A DNA stretch of 64,000 nucleotides from the NCBI GenBank assembly GCA_030148005.1, contig JASBUI010000006.1:62001-126000 (forward strand), in the 5' to 3' direction. Of the stretch, positions 43,297-54,526 are shown piece by piece. Within the stretch, counting starts at the first letter, position 1. Every line of letters begins with the position of its first letter. Under the pieces are notes generated by a model. The model had not been told where the DNA came from, ran no database searches, and saw only the letters and a list, made by a program, of their open reading frames with translations. The DNA comes from Paracoccaceae bacterium (GTDB lineage: Bacteria; Pseudomonadota; Alphaproteobacteria; Rhodobacterales; Rhodobacteraceae). The translations under genes were made by a program, and so were the position numbers.

Positions 43297-44697
43297 TCAG
43301 GCGGCCGTCCGGCTGACGGTGACCTGATCGCGCCCTTCGGACTTGGACCGATAAAGCGCCTGATCGGCTGCATGCAGCAAAGCCTCGACCGGGCTGGGGC
43401 AAATCGCGGACGTCTGGCCCGCCGGAACCGGACCCATGGCGATCCCGATGCTCATGGTCACGGGAACCTCGGTGCGCCCATCCTTTAAAAGCACCGGTTT
43501 CTCGCGCATGATCCGGCATAGCCTTTCGGCGGCAATGCGCGCCTTTTCAAGGCTGGTTTCCGGCATGGCGATCAGGAACTCTTCGCCGCCCAGCCGCGCC
43601 ACAAGATCGACGCTGCGCAGGTTGTCCAGAAGACGGCGCGCCACCTCGACCAGAACATCGTCGCCGCCGCTGTGGCCATAGGTGTCGTTCACCGATTTAA
43701 AGCGATCAAGATCGGCGATCATGACCGCAAAACCGCGATCAAGGCTTTGGGCCCGCGCCGCCATGCGTCCCAGATGCGGCAGCGCATAGCGGCGATTGAA
43801 CAGGCCCGTCAGCGGATCGGTCATGGCCAGTTTCAGCCCGTCGCGCACCGAGGTGCGAAGCCGGTCAGCATCGCGTTTCCGCTGGACCTGAACGCCAAGC
43901 CGCAGCGCAAGTTCGGCCGCATCAAAGCCGCTGCACATTACATCGCTTGCCCCAAGATCCAGCGCCATCACGGCGGCTGCGGGGTTGTCCACCGTCAGAA
44001 CGGCCAGAACCGCCGCGTGGCGGCTTCCCTTGCGGCTGCGAAGTTCGGGAAGAATTGTCAGCGCAGATCCGGGGCGTCCGGCGCAATCGACCGCAAGGAT
44101 CAGCGCATCCGCCCCATTTGCGCCGGTGTCCGAAAGCAGCGCCTCTTCCGGCGACCACACTTCGACCGAATGCCCGGTCTTGGCCTGAAGCGCCCGCCGC
44201 CATGCCGTAGCCTCGACAAGATCGCTTGCCACGATGGCAACGCGCGCGGGCGGCTCAAATGTGGCGGCGCCTTCGTAAAAGCCCAGTGCCTTGTTCGTGC
44301 CATCGCGCAGCCGAAGCTCTTCGGTGGCATCGCGCGCGCGCAAAAGACTGCGCAGACGCGCCAGCAAAAAGGCGTCATCCATGGGCCGCTCAATGACGTC
44401 CTCGGCCCCGGCGCGCAACAAATCCAGCCGGCCCTGAGTGTCGGTTTCCGTCGAAATGGCAACAACCGGCACGGTCGCGAAAAGATCGGCGTTCTTGATG
44501 CGGGAAATGGCTTCGACGCCCGACGCATTGCCGGATACACCGACAATCACAAGATCGGGCGGCAGCGCGGAGGACGCGATCAACGCCTCGGAGAACCCGG
44601 TGGCAAGACCGGCGTCATACCTTGCGGCCGAAAGTTTCACTTTCAGCGTGATCCGATTTGTCGCAACCGGATCTACGATTAAGATGCGGCCCGCCAT
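43297..44697 (-). CDS. pleD: PleD-like diguanylate cyclase with degenerate receiver domains
   Basis: A 466-residue protein of two receiver domains and a C-terminal GGDEF domain. The active site is GGEEF, preceded by DPLTGLFNRR and an intact RxxD inhibitory site (RSVD) five residues upstream, so it should make c-di-GMP with product inhibition. The first receiver has Gly at position 53, where the phosphorylated Asp is expected (PDLVIVGVSGN), and RP in place of the conserved KP. The second receiver also lacks a clear acceptor context. Control is therefore probably not by classical phosphorylation. It is divergent from DUF3572. Confidence 0.88.
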   Translation of the reverse strand: MAGRILIVDPVATNRITLKVKLSAARYDAGLATGFSEALIASSALPPDLVIVGVSGNASGVEAISRIKNADLFATVPVVAISTETDTQGRLDLLRAGAEDVIERPMDDAFLLARLRSLLRARDATEELRLRDGTNKALGFYEGAATFEPPARVAIVASDLVEATAWRRALQAKTGHSVEVWSPEEALLSDTGANGADALILAVDCAGRPGSALTILPELRSRKGSRHAAVLAVLTVDNPAAAVMALDLGASDVMCSGFDAAELALRLGVQVQRKRDADRLRTSVRDGLKLAMTDPLTGLFNRRYALPHLGRMAARAQSLDRGFAVMIADLDRFKSVNDTYGHSGGDDVLVEVARRLLDNLRSVDLVARLGGEEFLIAMPETSLEKARIAAERLCRIMREKPVLLKDGRTEVPVTMSIGIAMGPVPAGQTSAICPSPVEALLHAADQALYRSKSEGRDQVTVSRTAA

Positions 44698-45101: not shown

Positions 45102-48100
45102 TTAAAGGTCTATTTCAATGACCCCGCCTGCATTCTCTGCACGTGATTGGCACAGGATCATCGCCCCCTTGCGTTCGGCATTGGACAGAACGAAGTCGCG
45201 GTGTTGCACCTCGCCAGACGTCACCGTGCATTTGCACACCCCGCAAAGCCCGTCCGCGCATTTGACGTCGACATGCACGCCAGCGGCCAAAAGCGCGTCA
45301 CTTGCGCTTTGCTCGGCGCTGACGCGAACTTCTTTTCCCGATCTGGCAAGCCGCAGCGTAAACTCATGGTTTTCATACTCTGGCTGCTCGGGAACCGAGA
45401 AATACTCCAGATGCCGCGCCTCTTCGGGGAAACCGGCGTCTGTTGCGGCCGTAAGAACGGACGACATGTAACTGTCCGGCCCGCAGGTATAGACATGCGC
45501 GCCTGCGTCGTGGCGCAGGATTTGCGCCAGATCCGCGCGCGTGCCTTCATCCGAAAAGTGATAGTGTACCCGCCCGGCCCACGGAACCTGTGCCAAATCG
45601 TCCAGAAACCCCGCGTTTGCACGGCTTGAGCAACTGTAGTGCAGGGCAAATTCTGCGCCGATACGGTGCAGCCGTTGCGCCATCGCGATCATCGGCGTCA
45701 CGCCGATACCGCCGCCCATAAGGTAGGTGAATGCCGCCTCTTCATTCAGCTCGAAATGGTTGATCGGCCGCGAGACGAAGACCCTTCGGCCGGGCTCAAA
45801 AATACGGTGCATCAGCTTTGAACCACCGCGCCCGCCATCCTCTCGCAGGACCGCGATCTGATAGCGAGAGCGATCATGCGGATCGCCTGACAGCGAGTAC
45901 TGGCGAAAGAACTCTGGCGCGACGACCACATCGATATGCGCGCCCGCTGTCGCGGCGGGCAGGGGCGATCCGTCCGGCATCGAAAATTCGTATTTGGTCA
46001 CATTGCTGGTCATCTTCTCGGCCTTCGAGACGACGACACCGATGACGGGGGATGCGCCCTTGTCGGCTGTATAGACATGCTCGGGCGGCAGGCCAGCGGC
46101 GCGGCGGCGCTGGTGCTCTTTTGCCGGGATCATGTCGCGATAGGCCTCTATCCCTGCCTCGCGGTCCATCGGAAAGGGATAGCCCCAGGGCGGGGGCGCA
46201 AGCGGCGCAGGATAGACCGCCAGTGTCTGATCCTCGAACTTCAGATTCAGATCCTTGGAAAGGCTTCGCGCATTCACCGGATGGCGCGAGCGGTGGTAGG
46301 CCCCGTCATCGACCATCTCAAGATCCCACCACCATTTCTTTGCGCCGTTGATCTCACCGCGCCCGGCAAGATCATCCAGCCGCGCCAGCGCCCGCGCCGC
46401 GCGCGGCATCTTCATCGCCGCCCACCTGAAGGGCGCTTCGGAAAAGAGCCCTTCAAGGTTCCACGGGCAGGTCTTCATGCAGCGCCCGCACATCGCGCCG
46501 TTCTTTTGCGCAACGCGGTAGGTCGTGCATTTCTGGCTGTCCGATTTCCAGATCTCATAGCCGTTGAACATCAGCTTTGGACCGGCCGTGATCGCGCCCG
46601 ACGGGCATTCGCGCGCGCATTTGTTGCAGGCCTCGCAGAACCGCTGAAGCCCGAAATCGATGGGCTTGTCATGCTCCATCGGCATATCGGTGGTCACCAC
46701 CCCGGATTTGAGCCGCGGGCCGAGGAACGGGTTCAGGATCACCTCGCCGATGCGGCTGACCTCACCCAGCCCCGAAAGCAGCAGAAGCGGCGGGTGCAGC
46801 ACCTCGTCATCCATGACCGAATGCACCCGCGCGGTATAGCCAAGGCGCCGGATATGCTGGGCCAGTACGCCGCCAAGAAGCGAAAAACGAAGGTAGGCGC
46901 GCATCGACTGCGCACAAGCGATCCAGTCGTCACCGCTTGCCCCCTCCATCGTCTCATGCCCCTGATCGATGATCATCGAGATGGCGTTGTCGTGGTAGGG
47001 CGCAATCGGCTGCCCCGCCGCGTCGTGGCTGTAGTAGGTCCAGTCCGGGCAGGCGGAAAGGCCTACCGCATCCACCCCAAGGTAGTAAAGCGCAGCCTTG
47101 ATGTTGCGGGCATTGCGCGCCGGATCATCGGTTGAGGCGTGGCGCGGTGCGGCCTCGCCATCCTGCAACAGGACAAAGGCCCCCAGAGAGGGGCGAAAGG
47201 CAAAGGCGGCGGCGGATTTGCGCACGTAGTTGCCGTTCTTGGTCGCCTCTTGTGCAACAGGGCCCAGATCACCAAAAAGCGCGCGCGCGAACATGTTAGC
47301 GCGTTTGGGAACGCGCGCCACATTGGGCGCATCGATATAGGTTGTCGGCGTCTCAACGCGCTTCAGCGTCTCGAAGGGATGCGCGCCGTCAACGTAGTTG
47401 CGCGCGCGAAAGGGATCGCGGTTGCGGTGCGACTTTGCATGCGTTCCAAACCCGGTGAAATAGCTGGCCGGCGGGCGCTGGCCCGGAACAAGCGGAAGAT
47501 CGGCGGCAAGATCCAGCGTGGTTGTCACGACCGCAAGGCCAAAGGCGCGGCCCACGAAAGGGTTGCTGGCGCCATCCGGCCCCGCGGTGGCCAGCCCGGC
47601 CTGAACCGCAAGCTGGCCAAGATGAACATCCGTGGCGGCCTGCGAATGGGCGCGCGCCTCGTAGCCCAAAAGCCGGATGTAGCTGGCAAGCGTGACGGCG
47701 GTTTCCATACCGCGCAGGCAACTGCGCTGCGCCTCGGCGTCCTTGATCCAGTCGGTGCCCGGCTCATCCGGGCGCGGCGCCCGCGGGTGGTCATAAAGGA
47801 AGATCAGCGCATGGGTGTGATGGCGGCAATCGGCGGGCGGGACGCGCATCGCCTCTTTCAGGCCGGCCATGATGACATCAATCCCCGAAGCCAGCGTCTT
47901 GGGCTGCATCGTTTCGATCTTGGCGGCAAGGCGCCCGACATCGGGATTGGCAATGGGCTGATCCAGCCATGCGCCGTCCGGGATGGCGCAGGTTCCGACC
48001 ATTGCCGCGTCGCAGTAATAGCCAAAGGCCTTTAGATGGTCGGCCCGTTCCTGCGGGTCTTGGGGTATCTCGGCGCGTTCGGCCTTGACCAGCCCGTCGC

Positions 48101-48293
48101 GGGTGGCATCCAGCATCGCCTGATATTCCTGCATCGCGTTCACGATCGACAGCGGATCATCCGTGCGAAACGGCAGCGCGCCCTGCGGCGGCAGCAAGTG
48201 AAGGCCCGCCGCCTCTTTTGTTCGCGCCAGTTTCTCCAACGGGTAGGGGCCCTGATGCATCGGGCGGTTCTTGTAAGAGCGCCATTTGTTCAT
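45102..48293 (-). CDS. self-sufficient reductive dehalogenase (RdhA fused to ferredoxin reductase)
   Basis: A 1063-residue cytoplasmic protein in the style of catabolic BhbA/NpRdhA enzymes. Residues about 200-262 and 474-536 are two copies of a cobalamin-domain-like unit (IRLLGYEARAHS...GLAVVTT and IRRLGYTARVHS...SGVVTTD); the second leads into ferredoxin clusters C553/556/559/563 and C589/602/605/609. Residues 745-970 are an FNR reductase (RQYSLSG at 797, GGGIGVTPM at 860, CGPDSYM at 937). The C-terminal [2Fe-2S] domain has C1012, C1017, C1020, C1048. There is no Tat leader or membrane anchor. It should remove halogen from an organic substrate, probably aromatic, using NAD(P)H and cobalamin. 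The start lies four bases after the MarR stop. Confidence 0.88.
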   Translation of the reverse strand: MNKWRSYKNRPMHQGPYPLEKLARTKEAAGLHLLPPQGALPFRTDDPLSIVNAMQEYQAMLDATRDGLVKAERAEIPQDPQERADHLKAFGYYCDAAMVGTCAIPDGAWLDQPIANPDVGRLAAKIETMQPKTLASGIDVIMAGLKEAMRVPPADCRHHTHALIFLYDHPRAPRPDEPGTDWIKDAEAQRSCLRGMETAVTLASYIRLLGYEARAHSQAATDVHLGQLAVQAGLATAGPDGASNPFVGRAFGLAVVTTTLDLAADLPLVPGQRPPASYFTGFGTHAKSHRNRDPFRARNYVDGAHPFETLKRVETPTTYIDAPNVARVPKRANMFARALFGDLGPVAQEATKNGNYVRKSAAAFAFRPSLGAFVLLQDGEAAPRHASTDDPARNARNIKAALYYLGVDAVGLSACPDWTYYSHDAAGQPIAPYHDNAISMIIDQGHETMEGASGDDWIACAQSMRAYLRFSLLGGVLAQHIRRLGYTARVHSVMDDEVLHPPLLLLSGLGEVSRIGEVILNPFLGPRLKSGVVTTDMPMEHDKPIDFGLQRFCEACNKCARECPSGAITAGPKLMFNGYEIWKSDSQKCTTYRVAQKNGAMCGRCMKTCPWNLEGLFSEAPFRWAAMKMPRAARALARLDDLAGRGEINGAKKWWWDLEMVDDGAYHRSRHPVNARSLSKDLNLKFEDQTLAVYPAPLAPPPWGYPFPMDREAGIEAYRDMIPAKEHQRRRAAGLPPEHVYTADKGASPVIGVVVSKAEKMTSNVTKYEFSMPDGSPLPAATAGAHIDVVVAPEFFRQYSLSGDPHDRSRYQIAVLREDGGRGGSKLMHRIFEPGRRVFVSRPINHFELNEEAAFTYLMGGGIGVTPMIAMAQRLHRIGAEFALHYSCSSRANAGFLDDLAQVPWAGRVHYHFSDEGTRADLAQILRHDAGAHVYTCGPDSYMSSVLTAATDAGFPEEARHLEYFSVPEQPEYENHEFTLRLARSGKEVRVSAEQSASDALLAAGVHVDVKCADGLCGVCKCTVTSGEVQHRDFVLSNAERKGAMILCQSRAENAGGVIEIDL

Positions 48294-48297
48294 CGCA

Positions 48298-48753
48298 TCA
48301 GATCCTTTGCAGCGACGGCGGTGCATCGCCCTTGAGTTTTTCAAGGATCGCAACAAGGCTGGCGCGTTCCTCGGCGCTTAGACGCTCTTCGAAGTGCTGG
48401 GCGTTCCGGGCGGCAAGCGGCGTTGCTTCATTCAGCGCCCGGCGGCCCGCACCCGTGATCGCCACAAGCGTCGTGCGACCGTCACCGCGCCCTTCAGAGC
48501 GGCTGATAAGCCCGCCTTTTTCCATCTGCCGAAGTGCGCGCGATGTCGCTGTCCGGTCAATCCCGATGAAATGGGCGATGTCCGACGGGCGCGACAACCG
48601 CTCAACCCCCACTGCAAGCAGGACACACCACGTTGTGCGCGTCAGGCCCAACGCGCGCAGAGCCTCATCAAAGGGGCGCTCATTGAGGCGGGCAACAACC
48701 GTAAGCTGGTAGCCCAGAGAGGCGTGAAGATCATAGGCGGCGAGTCGGGACAT
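48298..48753 (-). CDS. MarR family regulator of the dehalogenase
   Basis: A 151-residue winged-helix regulator (LTVVARLNERPFDEALRALGLT, then SRPSDIAHFIGIDRTATSRALRQMEKGGLISR). A GTG at 48789 is in frame, but it lies within a palindrome, so the ATG at 48753 is preferred. It is co-transcribed with the reductive dehalogenase. MarR proteins of this kind usually release DNA when they bind the aromatic substrate. Confidence 0.87.
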   Translation of the reverse strand: MSRLAAYDLHASLGYQLTVVARLNERPFDEALRALGLTRTTWCVLLAVGVERLSRPSDIAHFIGIDRTATSRALRQMEKGGLISRSEGRGDGRTTLVAITGAGRRALNEATPLAARNAQHFEERLSAEERASLVAILEKLKGDAPPSLQRI

Positions 48754-48776
48754 GGCGAAAGCGTTGCGCCTTTTAG

Positions 48777-48789
48777 TTGTCACTGTCAA
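48777..48789. promoter_or_regulatory. MarR operator candidate TTGTCA-C-TGTCAA
   Basis: A 13-base inverted repeat, TTG.CA.TG.CAA, lies 24-36 bases upstream of the MarR start and about 90 bases before the divergent HAD gene. It fits self-repression of the marR-rdh operon. Confidence 0.5.
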
Positions 48790-48875
48790 TTAAATTTAGA
48801 CGCCGTTCAGGGCGCATTCCCGCTGGCACCCGGCGCTGCAACGCATAAGGTGCGGGGAAATGGAAGGAACGGTGT

Positions 48876-49601
48876 TTGACCATGACCAACAGCAGAAATC
48901 CCATCGAAGGCATCATCTTTGACAAGGACGGAACGCTTTTGGATTTTGAAGCGACATGGGGCCTTTGGGCGCAAGGGTTTCTGACCCAGATTGCCGAGGA
49001 CGATAACGCGCTTGCGATCAAGCTGGGGCAGGCCATTGGCTTTGATCACCCAAGCGCGCGCTTTCTTCCCGCCAGCCTTGCCATCGCTGGCAGTCAAGGA
49101 GAGGTCGCGGCGGCGCTGGCCGCCCATTTGCCGGGAGTTTCAAAGGACGCGATGATCGAGCGGATGAACACCTCGTCCGAGGATATACCGCTGGCCGAGG
49201 TTGTGCCCCTGCGCCCGCTGATCAAGGGGCTGAGTGACCGGGGTCTGCGCCTTGGCGTGGCAACGAACGATGCCGAGGCCCCCGCGCGCGCCCATTTGCA
49301 GGCCGCGGGTGTTCTTGAGTACTTTCCCTTCGTTGCGGGTTTTGACACCGGATTTGGGTACAAACCCGACCCCGGCCAGCTTTTGGGTTTTATCGCTAAG
49401 TTTGATCTGGACCCGGCGCGGGTCTTGATGGTCGGTGACAGCACCCATGATCTTCATGCCGGGCGCGCGGCGGGGATGATCGCCGTTGCGGTGCTGAGCG
49501 GGCCCTCAGGGGCCGAAGAGCTTGCCCCGCACGCCGATGTCGTGATCGGCGACATTAGCGAGCTGCCACAATGGCTTAACCGGCGCGAGGCCGCTGAGTA
49601 A
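48876..49601 (+). CDS. HAD family hydrolase (Gph-like)
   Basis: A 241-residue HAD-IA phosphatase. It has DxD motif FDKDGTLLD (near residue 16), the Thr/Ser motif in GVATNDAEA, Lys in YKPDPGQLL and the acidic motif VGDSTHDLHAG. It resembles phosphoglycolate phosphatase but the substrate is unproven. The start is TTG at 48876, seven bases from GGAAGGA; an ATG two codons later (48882) is the alternative. Confidence 0.85.
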   Translation: MTMTNSRNPIEGIIFDKDGTLLDFEATWGLWAQGFLTQIAEDDNALAIKLGQAIGFDHPSARFLPASLAIAGSQGEVAAALAAHLPGVSKDAMIERMNTSSEDIPLAEVVPLRPLIKGLSDRGLRLGVATNDAEAPARAHLQAAGVLEYFPFVAGFDTGFGYKPDPGQLLGFIAKFDLDPARVLMVGDSTHDLHAGRAAGMIAVAVLSGPSGAEELAPHADVVIGDISELPQWLNRREAAE

Positions 49602-50343: not shown

Positions 50344-50435
50344 GCAGCGATCCCCAATATTTAGGCTGGTTTCGCCGCCTCGGCGCTGAAAACGACATTG
50401 GCGGTCGCTTTCAAAAGTCATGCAGCGCAAAAGCG

Positions 50436-50462
50436 GTGTCATTTATTGGGCCTCAATGACAC
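50436..50462. promoter_or_regulatory. inverted repeat GTGTCATT-N11-AATGACAC upstream of mttB-like gene
   Basis: Perfect eight-base arms ending 16 bases before the start codon of the methyltransferase. It is either an operator or a leader hairpin near the ribosome site. Confidence 0.45.
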
Positions 50463-50478
50463 TGATCCGAGGTTGACC

Positions 50479-52035
50479 ATGCCACAAAGCGCATCACGCC
50501 GCCGGCGTCACGGGGGACGGGCAGGGGCCGCGGATCGACGCGGCAGCGCGGTGATAGACCAGATGCCCTGGCGTCTGCCGGTCAATACGGACCGGCCAAC
50601 CGAACCTCTGCCGCCCGAAGGCGTTCAGGCGATCCACGATGGCGCCATGCGCATTCTTGAAGAGATCGGCATCGAGTTTCTGAACCTTGAATCGCTTGAG
50701 ATTTTCAAAGAGGCGGGCGCCCGCGTTGATGGCACCAACGTGCGGTTGGATCGCGACTGGGTGATGGAAATGGTTGCCAAGGCGCCGGCGCAGTTTGACA
50801 TCACGCCGCGCAACCTTGACCGCAAGATCACGATCGGCGGGCCCTACATCCTTTTTGGCAACGTCTCATCCCCGCCCAACTACTGGGATCTGACCACCGG
50901 CAAAGTGCCCGGCACACGCCAGCAATGCGCGGATCTTCTGAAGCTTACCCAGTACTTCAACTGCATCCATTTCGCCGGCGGCTATCCGGTCGAACCTGTC
51001 GACATCCATGCACGTGAAAGGCACCTCGATGTGGTCTTTGACAAGCTGACGCTTACCGACAAGGTGGCCCATGCCTATTCGCTTGGAAAAGAGCGGGTCG
51101 AGGATGTGATGGAGATGGTGCGCATCGCAGGCGGGCTGAGCGAAGAGGAGTTTCAGGCCGAGCCGCGGATGTACACCAACATCAACTCAACCTCGCCGCT
51201 TAAACATGATGTGCCGATGATCGACGGCTGCCTGCGCTGTGTGCGGCGCGGTCAGGCGGTGATTGTAACGCCCTTTACGCTGGCCGGTGCGATGGCGCCG
51301 GTGACCATGGCAGGCGCCGTGGCGCAATCAGTGGCCGAGGCGCTTTCGGCGATTGCGCTGTTTCAATACGTGCGCCCCGGATGCCCCTGCGCGATCGGAA
51401 CCTTTACATCCAACGTCGACATGAAATCAGGTGCCCCCGCCTTTGGAACGCCTGAATACATGCGCGCCACGCAGATGACCGGCCAGATGGCGCGGTTCTA
51501 CGGCTTGCCGCTGCGATCCTCGGGGTCCAGCGCGGCCAACGTGCCCGACGGACAGGCCATGTGGGAGACATCGAATAGCCTTTGGGCCGCTGTGCAGTCA
51601 GGAACCAACGTCGTCTATCACGCCGCCGGTTGGCTTGAAGGCGGGCTGATCGCCAGCCCGGAAAAGTTCATCATGGATTGCGAAGTGATCCAGATGATCC
51701 AGCGATACTTTGAGCCGGAGATTTGCGCCACCGGCCCCGATGAAATCGCGCTTGAAGCGATCAGGGATGTCGGAAATCAGGGCCACTTCTTTGGCATCCA
51801 GCACACGCAGGACCGCTATACCACCGTCTTTTATCAGCCCTTCCTGTCGGACTGGCGCAACTACGAAGGATGGGAGCTTGCGGGCGGCGTCTGGACGGCT
51901 GAGCGTGCGCATCAGAAATTCAAAGAGATCATTGCCAGCTTCGAAGCCCCCGAACTGGATATCGCGATCCGCGATGAGCTGGCCGATTTTGTGGCCCGCC
52001 GCAAGGCCGAGGGCGGCGCGCCAACCGATTTCTGA
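50479..52035 (+). CDS. MttB-family (trimethylamine methyltransferase-like) protein, non-pyrrolysine
   Basis: A 518-residue TIM-barrel protein of the MttB superfamily. The whole frame has no internal TAG, so it is a non-pyrrolysine member like glycine betaine:corrinoid methyltransferases. The N-terminus is basic and Arg-rich; conserved stretches include GAMRILEEIGIEFLN and FGNVSSPPNYWD. The partner corrinoid protein is not adjacent. Substrate is likely a quaternary amine, possibly related to the carnitine/betaine genes 13 kb upstream. The start has GAGG seven bases upstream. Confidence 0.85.
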   Translation: MPQSASRRRRHGGRAGAADRRGSAVIDQMPWRLPVNTDRPTEPLPPEGVQAIHDGAMRILEEIGIEFLNLESLEIFKEAGARVDGTNVRLDRDWVMEMVAKAPAQFDITPRNLDRKITIGGPYILFGNVSSPPNYWDLTTGKVPGTRQQCADLLKLTQYFNCIHFAGGYPVEPVDIHARERHLDVVFDKLTLTDKVAHAYSLGKERVEDVMEMVRIAGGLSEEEFQAEPRMYTNINSTSPLKHDVPMIDGCLRCVRRGQAVIVTPFTLAGAMAPVTMAGAVAQSVAEALSAIALFQYVRPGCPCAIGTFTSNVDMKSGAPAFGTPEYMRATQMTGQMARFYGLPLRSSGSSAANVPDGQAMWETSNSLWAAVQSGTNVVYHAAGWLEGGLIASPEKFIMDCEVIQMIQRYFEPEICATGPDEIALEAIRDVGNQGHFFGIQHTQDRYTTVFYQPFLSDWRNYEGWELAGGVWTAERAHQKFKEIIASFEAPELDIAIRDELADFVARRKAEGGAPTDF

Positions 52036-53870: not shown

Positions 53871-53932
53871 GCTTTTCGGCATTTCTTAACTCTGTCGCCC
53901 TAGCTTTGCTTGAAGAAGTAAAGGGAAATGGC

Positions 53933-54526
53933 ATGCATGGGTTGATGAACCGTGCCGTCCAATGTTTTGTGCGTGACACATACGGGCCTAAGGTCTGGGC
54001 GGAGGTCGTTTTAAGGGCCGATATCGGTCTCGATAACTTCGAGGCGATGTTTTCCTATGATGATCGCACAACCTTTTGTGTGCTTGATACCATCTGCGAG
54101 ATGCGCGCCAAGCCGCGCGATGCCTTGCTAGAGGATATTGGCACCTATCTCGTCTCTCACCCCAATGTCGAAGCGCTGCGCCGCCTTTTGCGCTTTGGCG
54201 GCGCGGGGTTTGCCGATTTTCTGCACTCTCTCGACGATCTTCACGACCGCGCAAAGCTGGCGGTGCCCGACCTTGAACTGCCCAAGCTGGAACTGCGCGC
54301 CCACACCGCCGATATGTTTTCGCTTTCGGTCACTTCGGCCCACCCGGGCTTTGGCAACGTCATGGTCGGCGTGTTGCAGGCCATGGCCGACGACTATGGC
54401 GCGCTGGCGCTTCTTGAGTTCAAGGGGCGCAGACAAACGGTTGAAACGATAGAGATCCGCATCCTTGAGACAAGCTTTGCCGAAGGGCGCAGCTTTGAAC
54501 TTGTCTCGGCCGGGGCAAAACCATGA
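53933..54526 (+). CDS. H-NOX (haem NO-binding) domain protein
   Basis: A 197-residue haem-domain protein. It opens MHGLMNRAVQCFVRDTYG like other H-NOX, and H104 (LDDLHDRAK) is at the expected proximal-ligand place. The usual YxSxR haem-propionate motif reads V-T-S-A-H (133-137), so Tyr and Arg are replaced while Ser is kept. It overlaps the GGDEF gene by four bases, so it probably reports nitric oxide to that cyclase. Start: ATG after AAAGGGA. Confidence 0.85.
   Translation: MHGLMNRAVQCFVRDTYGPKVWAEVVLRADIGLDNFEAMFSYDDRTTFCVLDTICEMRAKPRDALLEDIGTYLVSHPNVEALRRLLRFGGAGFADFLHSLDDLHDRAKLAVPDLELPKLELRAHTADMFSLSVTSAHPGFGNVMVGVLQAMADDYGALALLEFKGRRQTVETIEIRILETSFAEGRSFELVSAGAKP

Follow-up and report, generated by a model that had tools for sequence, protein, structure and literature searches.

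A predicted self-sufficient catabolic reductive dehalogenase gene next to a MarR-family gene and a candidate operator in a Paracoccaceae draft genome

Does a Paracoccaceae bacterium known from a draft genome (GCA_030148005.1; 2.54 Mb, 76% complete) encode a reductive dehalogenase that carries its own reductase, and is the MarR-family gene beside it the regulator? The question arises from a 64,000-nt stretch of contig JASBUI010000006.1 (positions 62,001-126,000), hereafter the window, where a first-pass annotation had read a self-sufficient dehalogenase of the BhbA/NpRdhA kind under MarR control. The gene, rdhA, lies on the minus strand at 45102-48293 as an uninterrupted open reading frame of 1063 residues (ATG at 48293, stop at 45102). 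Its product, RdhA, matched the NCBIfam model TIGR02486 'reductive dehalogenase' with 210 bits, above the cut-off of 160.35, and its top relative by sequence in the PDB was NpRdhA of Nitratireductor pacificus pht-3B (4ras, 6zxu) at E about 1e-164, with 268 of 571 aligned residues identical. The fold agreed with this assignment. The AlphaFold model of RdhA aligned to NpRdhA with Z 34.6 and a root-mean-square deviation (rmsd) of 2.8 over 659 residues, and Foldseek gave a TM-score of 0.85, normalised on target length. A search of the genome with RdhA returned two matches, rdhA itself and a match to the reductase part only on another contig.

To describe the layout of RdhA we used an alignment of RdhA with 48 of 80 named relatives (A2, 49 rows), the 80 being the best of 524 confirmed relatives, and a second alignment of 11 rows that included BhbA (A1). 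All features of the protein given here are on the minus strand. Two cobalamin-domain units come first: unit 1 at about residues 80-275 (47469-48056), and unit 2, the predicted functional cobalamin-binding domain from its residue map to NpRdhA, at about residues 385-545 (46659-47141). A profile-profile alignment of the two (hhalign) gave E 5e-20 over 162 columns with 32% identity, so the proposed duplication held. The position of the predicted proton donor Tyr467 of unit 2 is taken in unit 1 by Cys192 (42 of 49 A2 rows, Ala in the other 7), and that of Lys529 by Gly252 (44 of 49). Because both catalytic residues are replaced, unit 1 looks vestigial, as the first reading had it, and may serve a structural role; catabolic RdhAs have been described with a vestigial first copy of the cobalamin domain (PMC10463259). 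Two [4Fe-4S] sites follow (C553, C556, C559, C563 and C589, C602, C605, C609; 46458-46637), placed by the NpRdhA map and by a Pfam match above cut-off to a 4Fe-4S dicluster at residues 553-612. The C-terminal part, residues 747-1063, matched phthalate dioxygenase reductase 2pia by sequence, as well as the reductase parts of self-sufficient P450s. It is made up of a flavin/NAD(P)H module at residues 747-966 (45396-46055) and a [2Fe-2S] ferredoxin at residues 978-1063 (C1012, C1017, C1020, C1048; 45105-45362; Pfam Fer2 above cut-off at 983-1052). The reductase also matched 2pia by fold (Z 28.0), with an rmsd of 12.6 over 302 residues that indicates a different placement of its sub-domains. A fused NAD(P)H-type reductase is thus present, but the 'FNR domain' first named there is of the phthalate-dioxygenase-reductase (PDOR) type. 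All eight cysteines of the [4Fe-4S] sites are invariant in A2, as are all twelve when those of the [2Fe-2S] site are counted.

The fused reductase sets RdhA apart from the unfused NpRdhA type. Its N-terminus (MNKWRSYKNRP...) has no twin-arginine motif, as read by eye with no signal-peptide program run; RdhA thus does not show the Tat signal of respiratory PceA-type enzymes, in line with the earlier reading. No RdhB-type anchor was found among the ten neighbouring proteins scanned (39.9-54.5 kb), a scan that left aside short open reading frames and the rest of the genome. Collectively, these comparisons support the prediction, at the level of sequence and fold, that RdhA is a self-sufficient catabolic reductive dehalogenase of the BhbA/JtRdhA type.

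We next consider the active site, for which residue roles in NpRdhA were taken from PMC7565698. NpRdhA residues S422, M423, Y426, K488, R552 and F291 map to S463, M464, Y467, K529, R593 and F335 of RdhA, and all six are kept in every row of A2 (49 of 49) and A1 (11 of 11). The proton-donor residues have therefore been retained in unit 2. The predicted catalytic proton donor is Tyr467 (46893-46895), present in all 80 named loci; Lys529 lies at 46707-46709 and Arg593 at 46515-46517. The first-pass annotation had instead put the catalytic tyrosine in the CPDWTYY segment (residues 415-421; 47031-47051). This was rejected, since NpRdhA Tyr426 aligns with Y467 and not with Y421. Within that segment Y421 is invariant (49 of 49 A2 rows) and position 420 is Tyr in 26 rows and Trp in 23.

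Several characterised enzymes resemble RdhA. JtRdhA of Jhaorihella thermophila (Rhodobacterales, Paracoccaceae), published in 2023, has the same domain order by its description in PMC10463259, with a duplicated cobalamin domain, two [4Fe-4S] sites, a fused PDOR and no Tat signal, and the same key residues (Y426, K488 and R552 in NpRdhA numbering). The JtRdhA sequence is not among the best 80 of the 524 relatives, and this likeness is drawn from the published description. BhbA of Comamonas sp. 7D-2 (plasmid pBHB) is a full-length match at 49% identity with the same catalytic residues, although it has Ser at position 460 and Ala at 493; a homologue in Nitratireductor OM-1 is 50% identical. NpRdhA shares the fold and catalytic residues but has no fused reductase. 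Ros_A3X954 of Roseobacter sp. MED193, a marine debrominase, is like RdhA described as having no Tat signal (PMC13101508). Its cluster motifs are given as residues 283-294 and 337-345 in the same source, which indicates a shorter layout up to the clusters, and on these positions we rejected Ros_A3X954 as a near-identical characterised protein; it is likewise distinct from the fused MED193 homologue (L105, 66% identity in A2). Since the architecture has been published for BhbA and JtRdhA and 115 of 295 genomes of the family have a match (108 full length), RdhA is no new kind of enzyme. It is a well-formed further example of a type already known and common among its relatives. The earlier observation was sound and its reading largely right, with one wrong residue and a novelty that was overstated. 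As an aside, a fused RdhA is encoded in the MED193 record, and PMC13101508 attributes Ros_A3X954 to that strain too, which would put two kinds of enzyme in one strain.

The MarR-family gene, marR (48298-48753, minus strand), encodes 151 residues and ends 4 bases upstream of rdhA. It was identified from its open reading frame and from Pfam and NCBIfam scans, with 41.1 bits to PF12802 (cut-off 27) and 35.9 bits to PF01047 (cut-off 24.6). An imperfect 21-base palindrome, TTAATTGACAGTGACAACTAA on the minus strand, occupies 48773-48793, with 19 bases between it and the marR ATG, and is of the TTGACA-N-TGTCAA type. That the pattern occurs once in the window (0.02 expected) carries no weight as a test, as it was derived from this very site. 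We therefore looked at relatives, where sites of the same type recurred. Among 21 neighbourhoods (the window, its 15 nearest relatives and five more distant ones), 13 had a MarR match, and in 12 of these a site within two mismatches of TTGACANTGTCAA was seen by eye at the marR start; the exception, L042, has a MarR gene and no such site there. Across the 80 named loci a MarR gene lies directly upstream on the same strand in 22 and further off in two, and 56 have no match in the flank available (L124 has no upstream bases and L097 only 598). Of the 22 loci with an adjacent MarR gene, 20 have the palindrome upstream of rdhA when two mismatches are allowed; of the 58 others, 2 do. L060 and L087 are the two adjacent-MarR loci that have no such site, L087 having one at three mismatches. 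L088 belongs to the 58 but should not be read as a true negative, because its MarR gene is 553 bases off and a site with one mismatch falls about 1 kb upstream of rdhA, outside the scanned region. The upstream regions of the 22 loci held 23 sites. The remaining 251,089 bases of these loci held 11, which sets the background at 0.03 sites per region, and the other 58 regions held two, about their background of 0.02 per region. The association gave a Fisher p of 1.4e-14, a value that is not independent as the loci are related. We take it as strong conservation and not as an independent test, because the loci are related and overlap the genomes in which the motif was first noticed. The conserved palindrome supports the proposed control of rdhA by MarR, and the site at 48773-48793 is a candidate MarR operator. 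None of the open-access papers listed in the literature searches was, by its listing, about control of a catabolic rdhA by MarR; subscription papers were outside their scope and we do not claim that such control is unpublished. In the passages of PMC10463259 consulted no regulator is mentioned for JtRdhA, and a search of it for 'MarR' gave only an unrelated word.

How might such an enzyme work? For relatives, NADPH, flavin, [2Fe-2S], two [4Fe-4S] and cobalamin have been reported, together with direct contact between cobalt and halogen and a proton from tyrosine (PMC7565698, PMC10463259). With NADPH, JtRdhA reduces brominated and iodinated phenols with 1:1 coupling in air, and chlorinated analogues only inhibit it (PMC10463259). 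Transferring cofactors, electron route, activity, substrate and repression from such relatives, we picture RdhA as a single polypeptide, soluble in the cytoplasm, that carries cobalamin and iron-sulfur clusters. Electrons would pass from NAD(P)H to the PDOR flavin, the [2Fe-2S] ferredoxin, the two [4Fe-4S] clusters and then base-off cobalamin in unit 2, where cobalt would contact the halogen directly. An ortho-halophenol would be held by its phenol oxygen through Ser463, Lys529 and Arg593, and the proton would come from Tyr467 together with Lys529, so that halide and the dehalogenated phenol are released. RdhA is thus probably a B12- and NADPH-using single-protein enzyme that removes bromine or iodine from phenols, even in air, and bromo- or iodophenols are its likely natural substrates. 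MarR would most likely bind the palindrome at its own promoter and repress the marR-rdhA pair until a phenolic ligand releases it. We regard this model as a whole, a soluble self-sufficient ortho-halophenol dehalogenase in a MarR-repressed marR-rdhA pair, as highly probable. CbiC, an enzyme for making cobalamin, is encoded in the genome, and a cobalamin supply is plausible from this one pathway step. Oxygen tolerance is not to be assumed for every marine relative, since Ros_A3X954, a marine relative of other layout, is reported to be highly oxygen-sensitive (PMC13101508).

Several observations weigh against this model. The AlphaFold model is of moderate quality (mean pLDDT 76.8, with stretches of unit 2 and of the cluster region below 60), and unit 1 is predicted better than unit 2. 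The halogen pocket differs from that of NpRdhA at A419 (C460 in RdhA), N452 (V493), F310 (Y356, in a gappy part of the alignment) and F290 (M334), and the first three of these changes mean that the preferred substrate may differ from that of NpRdhA. A promoter scan gave one sigma-70-like match, at 48758-48730, off the palindrome, and several close relatives at about 75-77% identity carry rdhA with no MarR match. The ten neighbouring window proteins that were scanned include no enzyme of aromatic catabolism; they are NUDIX, DUF983, sigma-70, GGDEF response regulator, DUF3572, HAD, DsbA-like, MTTB, DUF4153 and HNOB (haem-NO-binding) proteins. PobA (4-hydroxybenzoate 3-monooxygenase) was below cut-off, its best match scoring 33 bits versus 538.7 in a genome that is 76% complete.

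The last two observations also favour a different role for the same chemistry, in which RdhA dehalogenates to detoxify halophenols or halogenated metabolites from neighbouring organisms and not for growth on carbon. The genes around rdhA, a set common to many relatives, point the same way, and BhbA and the Nitratireductor OM-1 homologue, by contrast, lie near ring-cleavage genes, BhbA on a conjugative plasmid with a protocatechuate 4,5-dioxygenase and a tripartite tricarboxylate transporter protein nearby. On the other hand, ring-cleavage enzymes are present elsewhere in this genome (protocatechuate 3,4-dioxygenase beta and homogentisate dioxygenase, both above cut-off), so that the dehalogenated ring could be used. 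An Aminobacter homologue lies near a TRAP transporter, and E. coli W could grow on 3-bromo-4-hydroxyphenylacetate with the help of JtRdhA (PMC10463259). We give detoxification a substantial chance, somewhat short of even.

The regulatory half of the model has a rival of its own, namely that marR lies beside rdhA by chance and plays no part in its expression. The 56 of 80 named relatives with no MarR match in the available flank fit this, as do the 16 loci in which a divergent LysR gene lies upstream of rdhA, an arrangement which suggests that these other relatives probably use another regulator. Chance is nevertheless hard to square with the same-strand arrangement in 22 loci, the palindrome in 20 of those, and the 4-base spacing between marR and rdhA in the window, and we consider it improbable. 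As separate observations, loci L055 and L056 cover Jannaschia M317 and Aminobacter SS-2016, where a MarR gene is also annotated beside rdhA (divergent in Jannaschia; on the same strand and near the TRAP transporter in Aminobacter). Cochlodiniinecator piscidefendens and Leisingera sp. ANG59 are cultured relatives whose marR and rdhA are arranged as in the window.

Returning to the predicted halophenol dehalogenase, we examined a pocket position that varies between relatives. Cys460 (46914-46916) corresponds to Ala419 of NpRdhA in the second-bromine pocket. The 80 named loci divide at this position into 44 with Val, 34 with Cys and one each with Ser and Thr; Ruegeria TM1040 has a Val460 homologue. 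The 22 loci with an adjacent MarR gene have Cys in 20, Ser in one and Thr in one; the 56 with no MarR match have Val in 43 and Cys in 13, and the two with a more distant MarR gene have one of each. In NpRdhA the change A419M shifted preference towards mono-halogenated phenols, although activity on these did not rise (PMC7565698), which makes it a fair guess that position 460 tunes substrate choice and that the residue there is a candidate substrate marker. Its association with the regulator follows the tree, and shared ancestry alone may account for it. NpRdhA Lys307, which touches the carboxylate of one bound form of 3-bromo-4-hydroxybenzoate (PMC7565698), was also considered; we do not claim its loss in RdhA, as the alignment is gappy there and 36 of 49 A2 rows have a Lys one residue further on, at 352. 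A pocket position that varies by clade could also mean that the RdhA fold works on something other than a halophenol, perhaps a phenol with a different ortho substituent, or carries out a different reductive cleavage. This reading would also accommodate the high frequency of the gene in a single family (115 of 295 genomes) and a locus that showed no halogen-specific context. It is, however, difficult to reconcile with the retention of the NpRdhA residues that bind the phenol oxygen and donate the proton, or with a reductase-fused relative that is a bromo- and iodophenol dehalogenase (PMC10463259), and we judge it very unlikely, slightly more so than a chance MarR. It has been called unclear if brominated compounds are the only ones that the fused subfamily acts on (PMC10463259). 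A misread epoxyqueuosine reductase (QueG) or other class III cobalamin enzyme was rejected as having a negligible chance: the QueG model TIGR00276 matches residues 481-612 with 23 bits against a cut-off of 200, the reductive dehalogenase model scores 210 bits, in fold the protein matches NpRdhA, and a separate protein of the genome scores 438 bits as QueG, so that the first placement of the protein with RdhA stands.

How widespread is the gene? In the family of the window, 115 of 295 genomes (its own included) had a match at E 1e-80 or better, of which 108 were full-length, at 53-82% identity apart from the row of RdhA itself, and seven were partial, split or unfused. In a class-wide draw 31 of 385 genomes matched, five of them in the window's family (its own included); among the other 26 were four full-length fusions and 22 that aligned only to about residue 759. 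The nearest named relative, among the best 80 of 524, is a metagenome-assembled Paracoccaceae bacterium at 82% identity, and the named relatives make a marine setting plausible. In a tree of 41 of 102 core sequences RdhA fell in a 13-row clade with support 99/95, and BhbA paired with Nitratireductor OM-1. The root and the exact place of NpRdhA are not trusted, because the QueG and PceA branches are extremely long, the PceA rows cover less than half of the columns and the bootstrap had not settled. Homologues of bhbA are reported to be widespread in the Roseobacter clade, and bromophenols to be abundant in marine ecosystems (PMC13101508). The match in 115 of 295 family genomes suggests that dehalogenation driven by NAD(P)H and tolerant of oxygen may be commonplace in the family and may form part of bromine and iodine cycling, and the predicted operator and the residue 460 marker bear on how the enzyme is switched and which substrate it takes. 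A broader proposal, which we hold to be tentative and on balance unlikely, is that the Cys460 clade, often with MarR directly upstream, is a distinct, mainly vertical branch with its own substrate range and a halophenol-sensing MarR acting on TTGACA-N-TGTCAA, that the Val460 clade, partly with LysR, handles different halophenols, and that aerobic reductive dehalogenation is a standing function of Rhodobacterales, many of them marine. Separately, some rdhA copies are interrupted, being split in two (G269:C1, G099:C4) or partial with in-frame stops (the second copy in G193:C12, and G096:C17), through either gene decay or assembly error.

The window's clade shares a neighbourhood, with HAD and MTTB genes on one side of rdhA and DUF3572 and GGDEF response regulator genes on the other. 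A cluster of 92-residue proteins and a HAD-like cluster each occur at 27 of the 80 named loci, and L041 has a similar arrangement on a 4.3 Mb contig. A mobile marR-rdhA cassette is unsupported for this clade, as the neighbourhood is common to many relatives; rdhA homologues elsewhere were found on plasmids. The HAD-superfamily hydrolase gene (48876-49601, plus strand) adjoins marR. Its Pfam name, 'haloacid dehalogenase-like', is no evidence of dehalogenation, because most of its NCBIfam matches are phosphatases. The MTTB-family methyltransferase gene (50398-52035, plus strand) scored 731 bits to PF06253 and 253 bits to the trimethylamine equivalog, below the cut-off of 525, and its product is presumably corrinoid-dependent. 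Upstream of rdhA, 23 of the 80 named loci carry a member of a 518-residue cluster that by our reading looks the same as the MTTB protein. The HNOB gene (53906-54526, plus strand) is about 9 kb from the GGDEF response regulator gene (43297-44697). In a group of relatives (L111, L110, L133, L128), many of them Ruegeria, the divergent LysR gene lies upstream of rdhA (16 loci) and molybdenum-hydroxylase-like genes lie downstream (14 loci).

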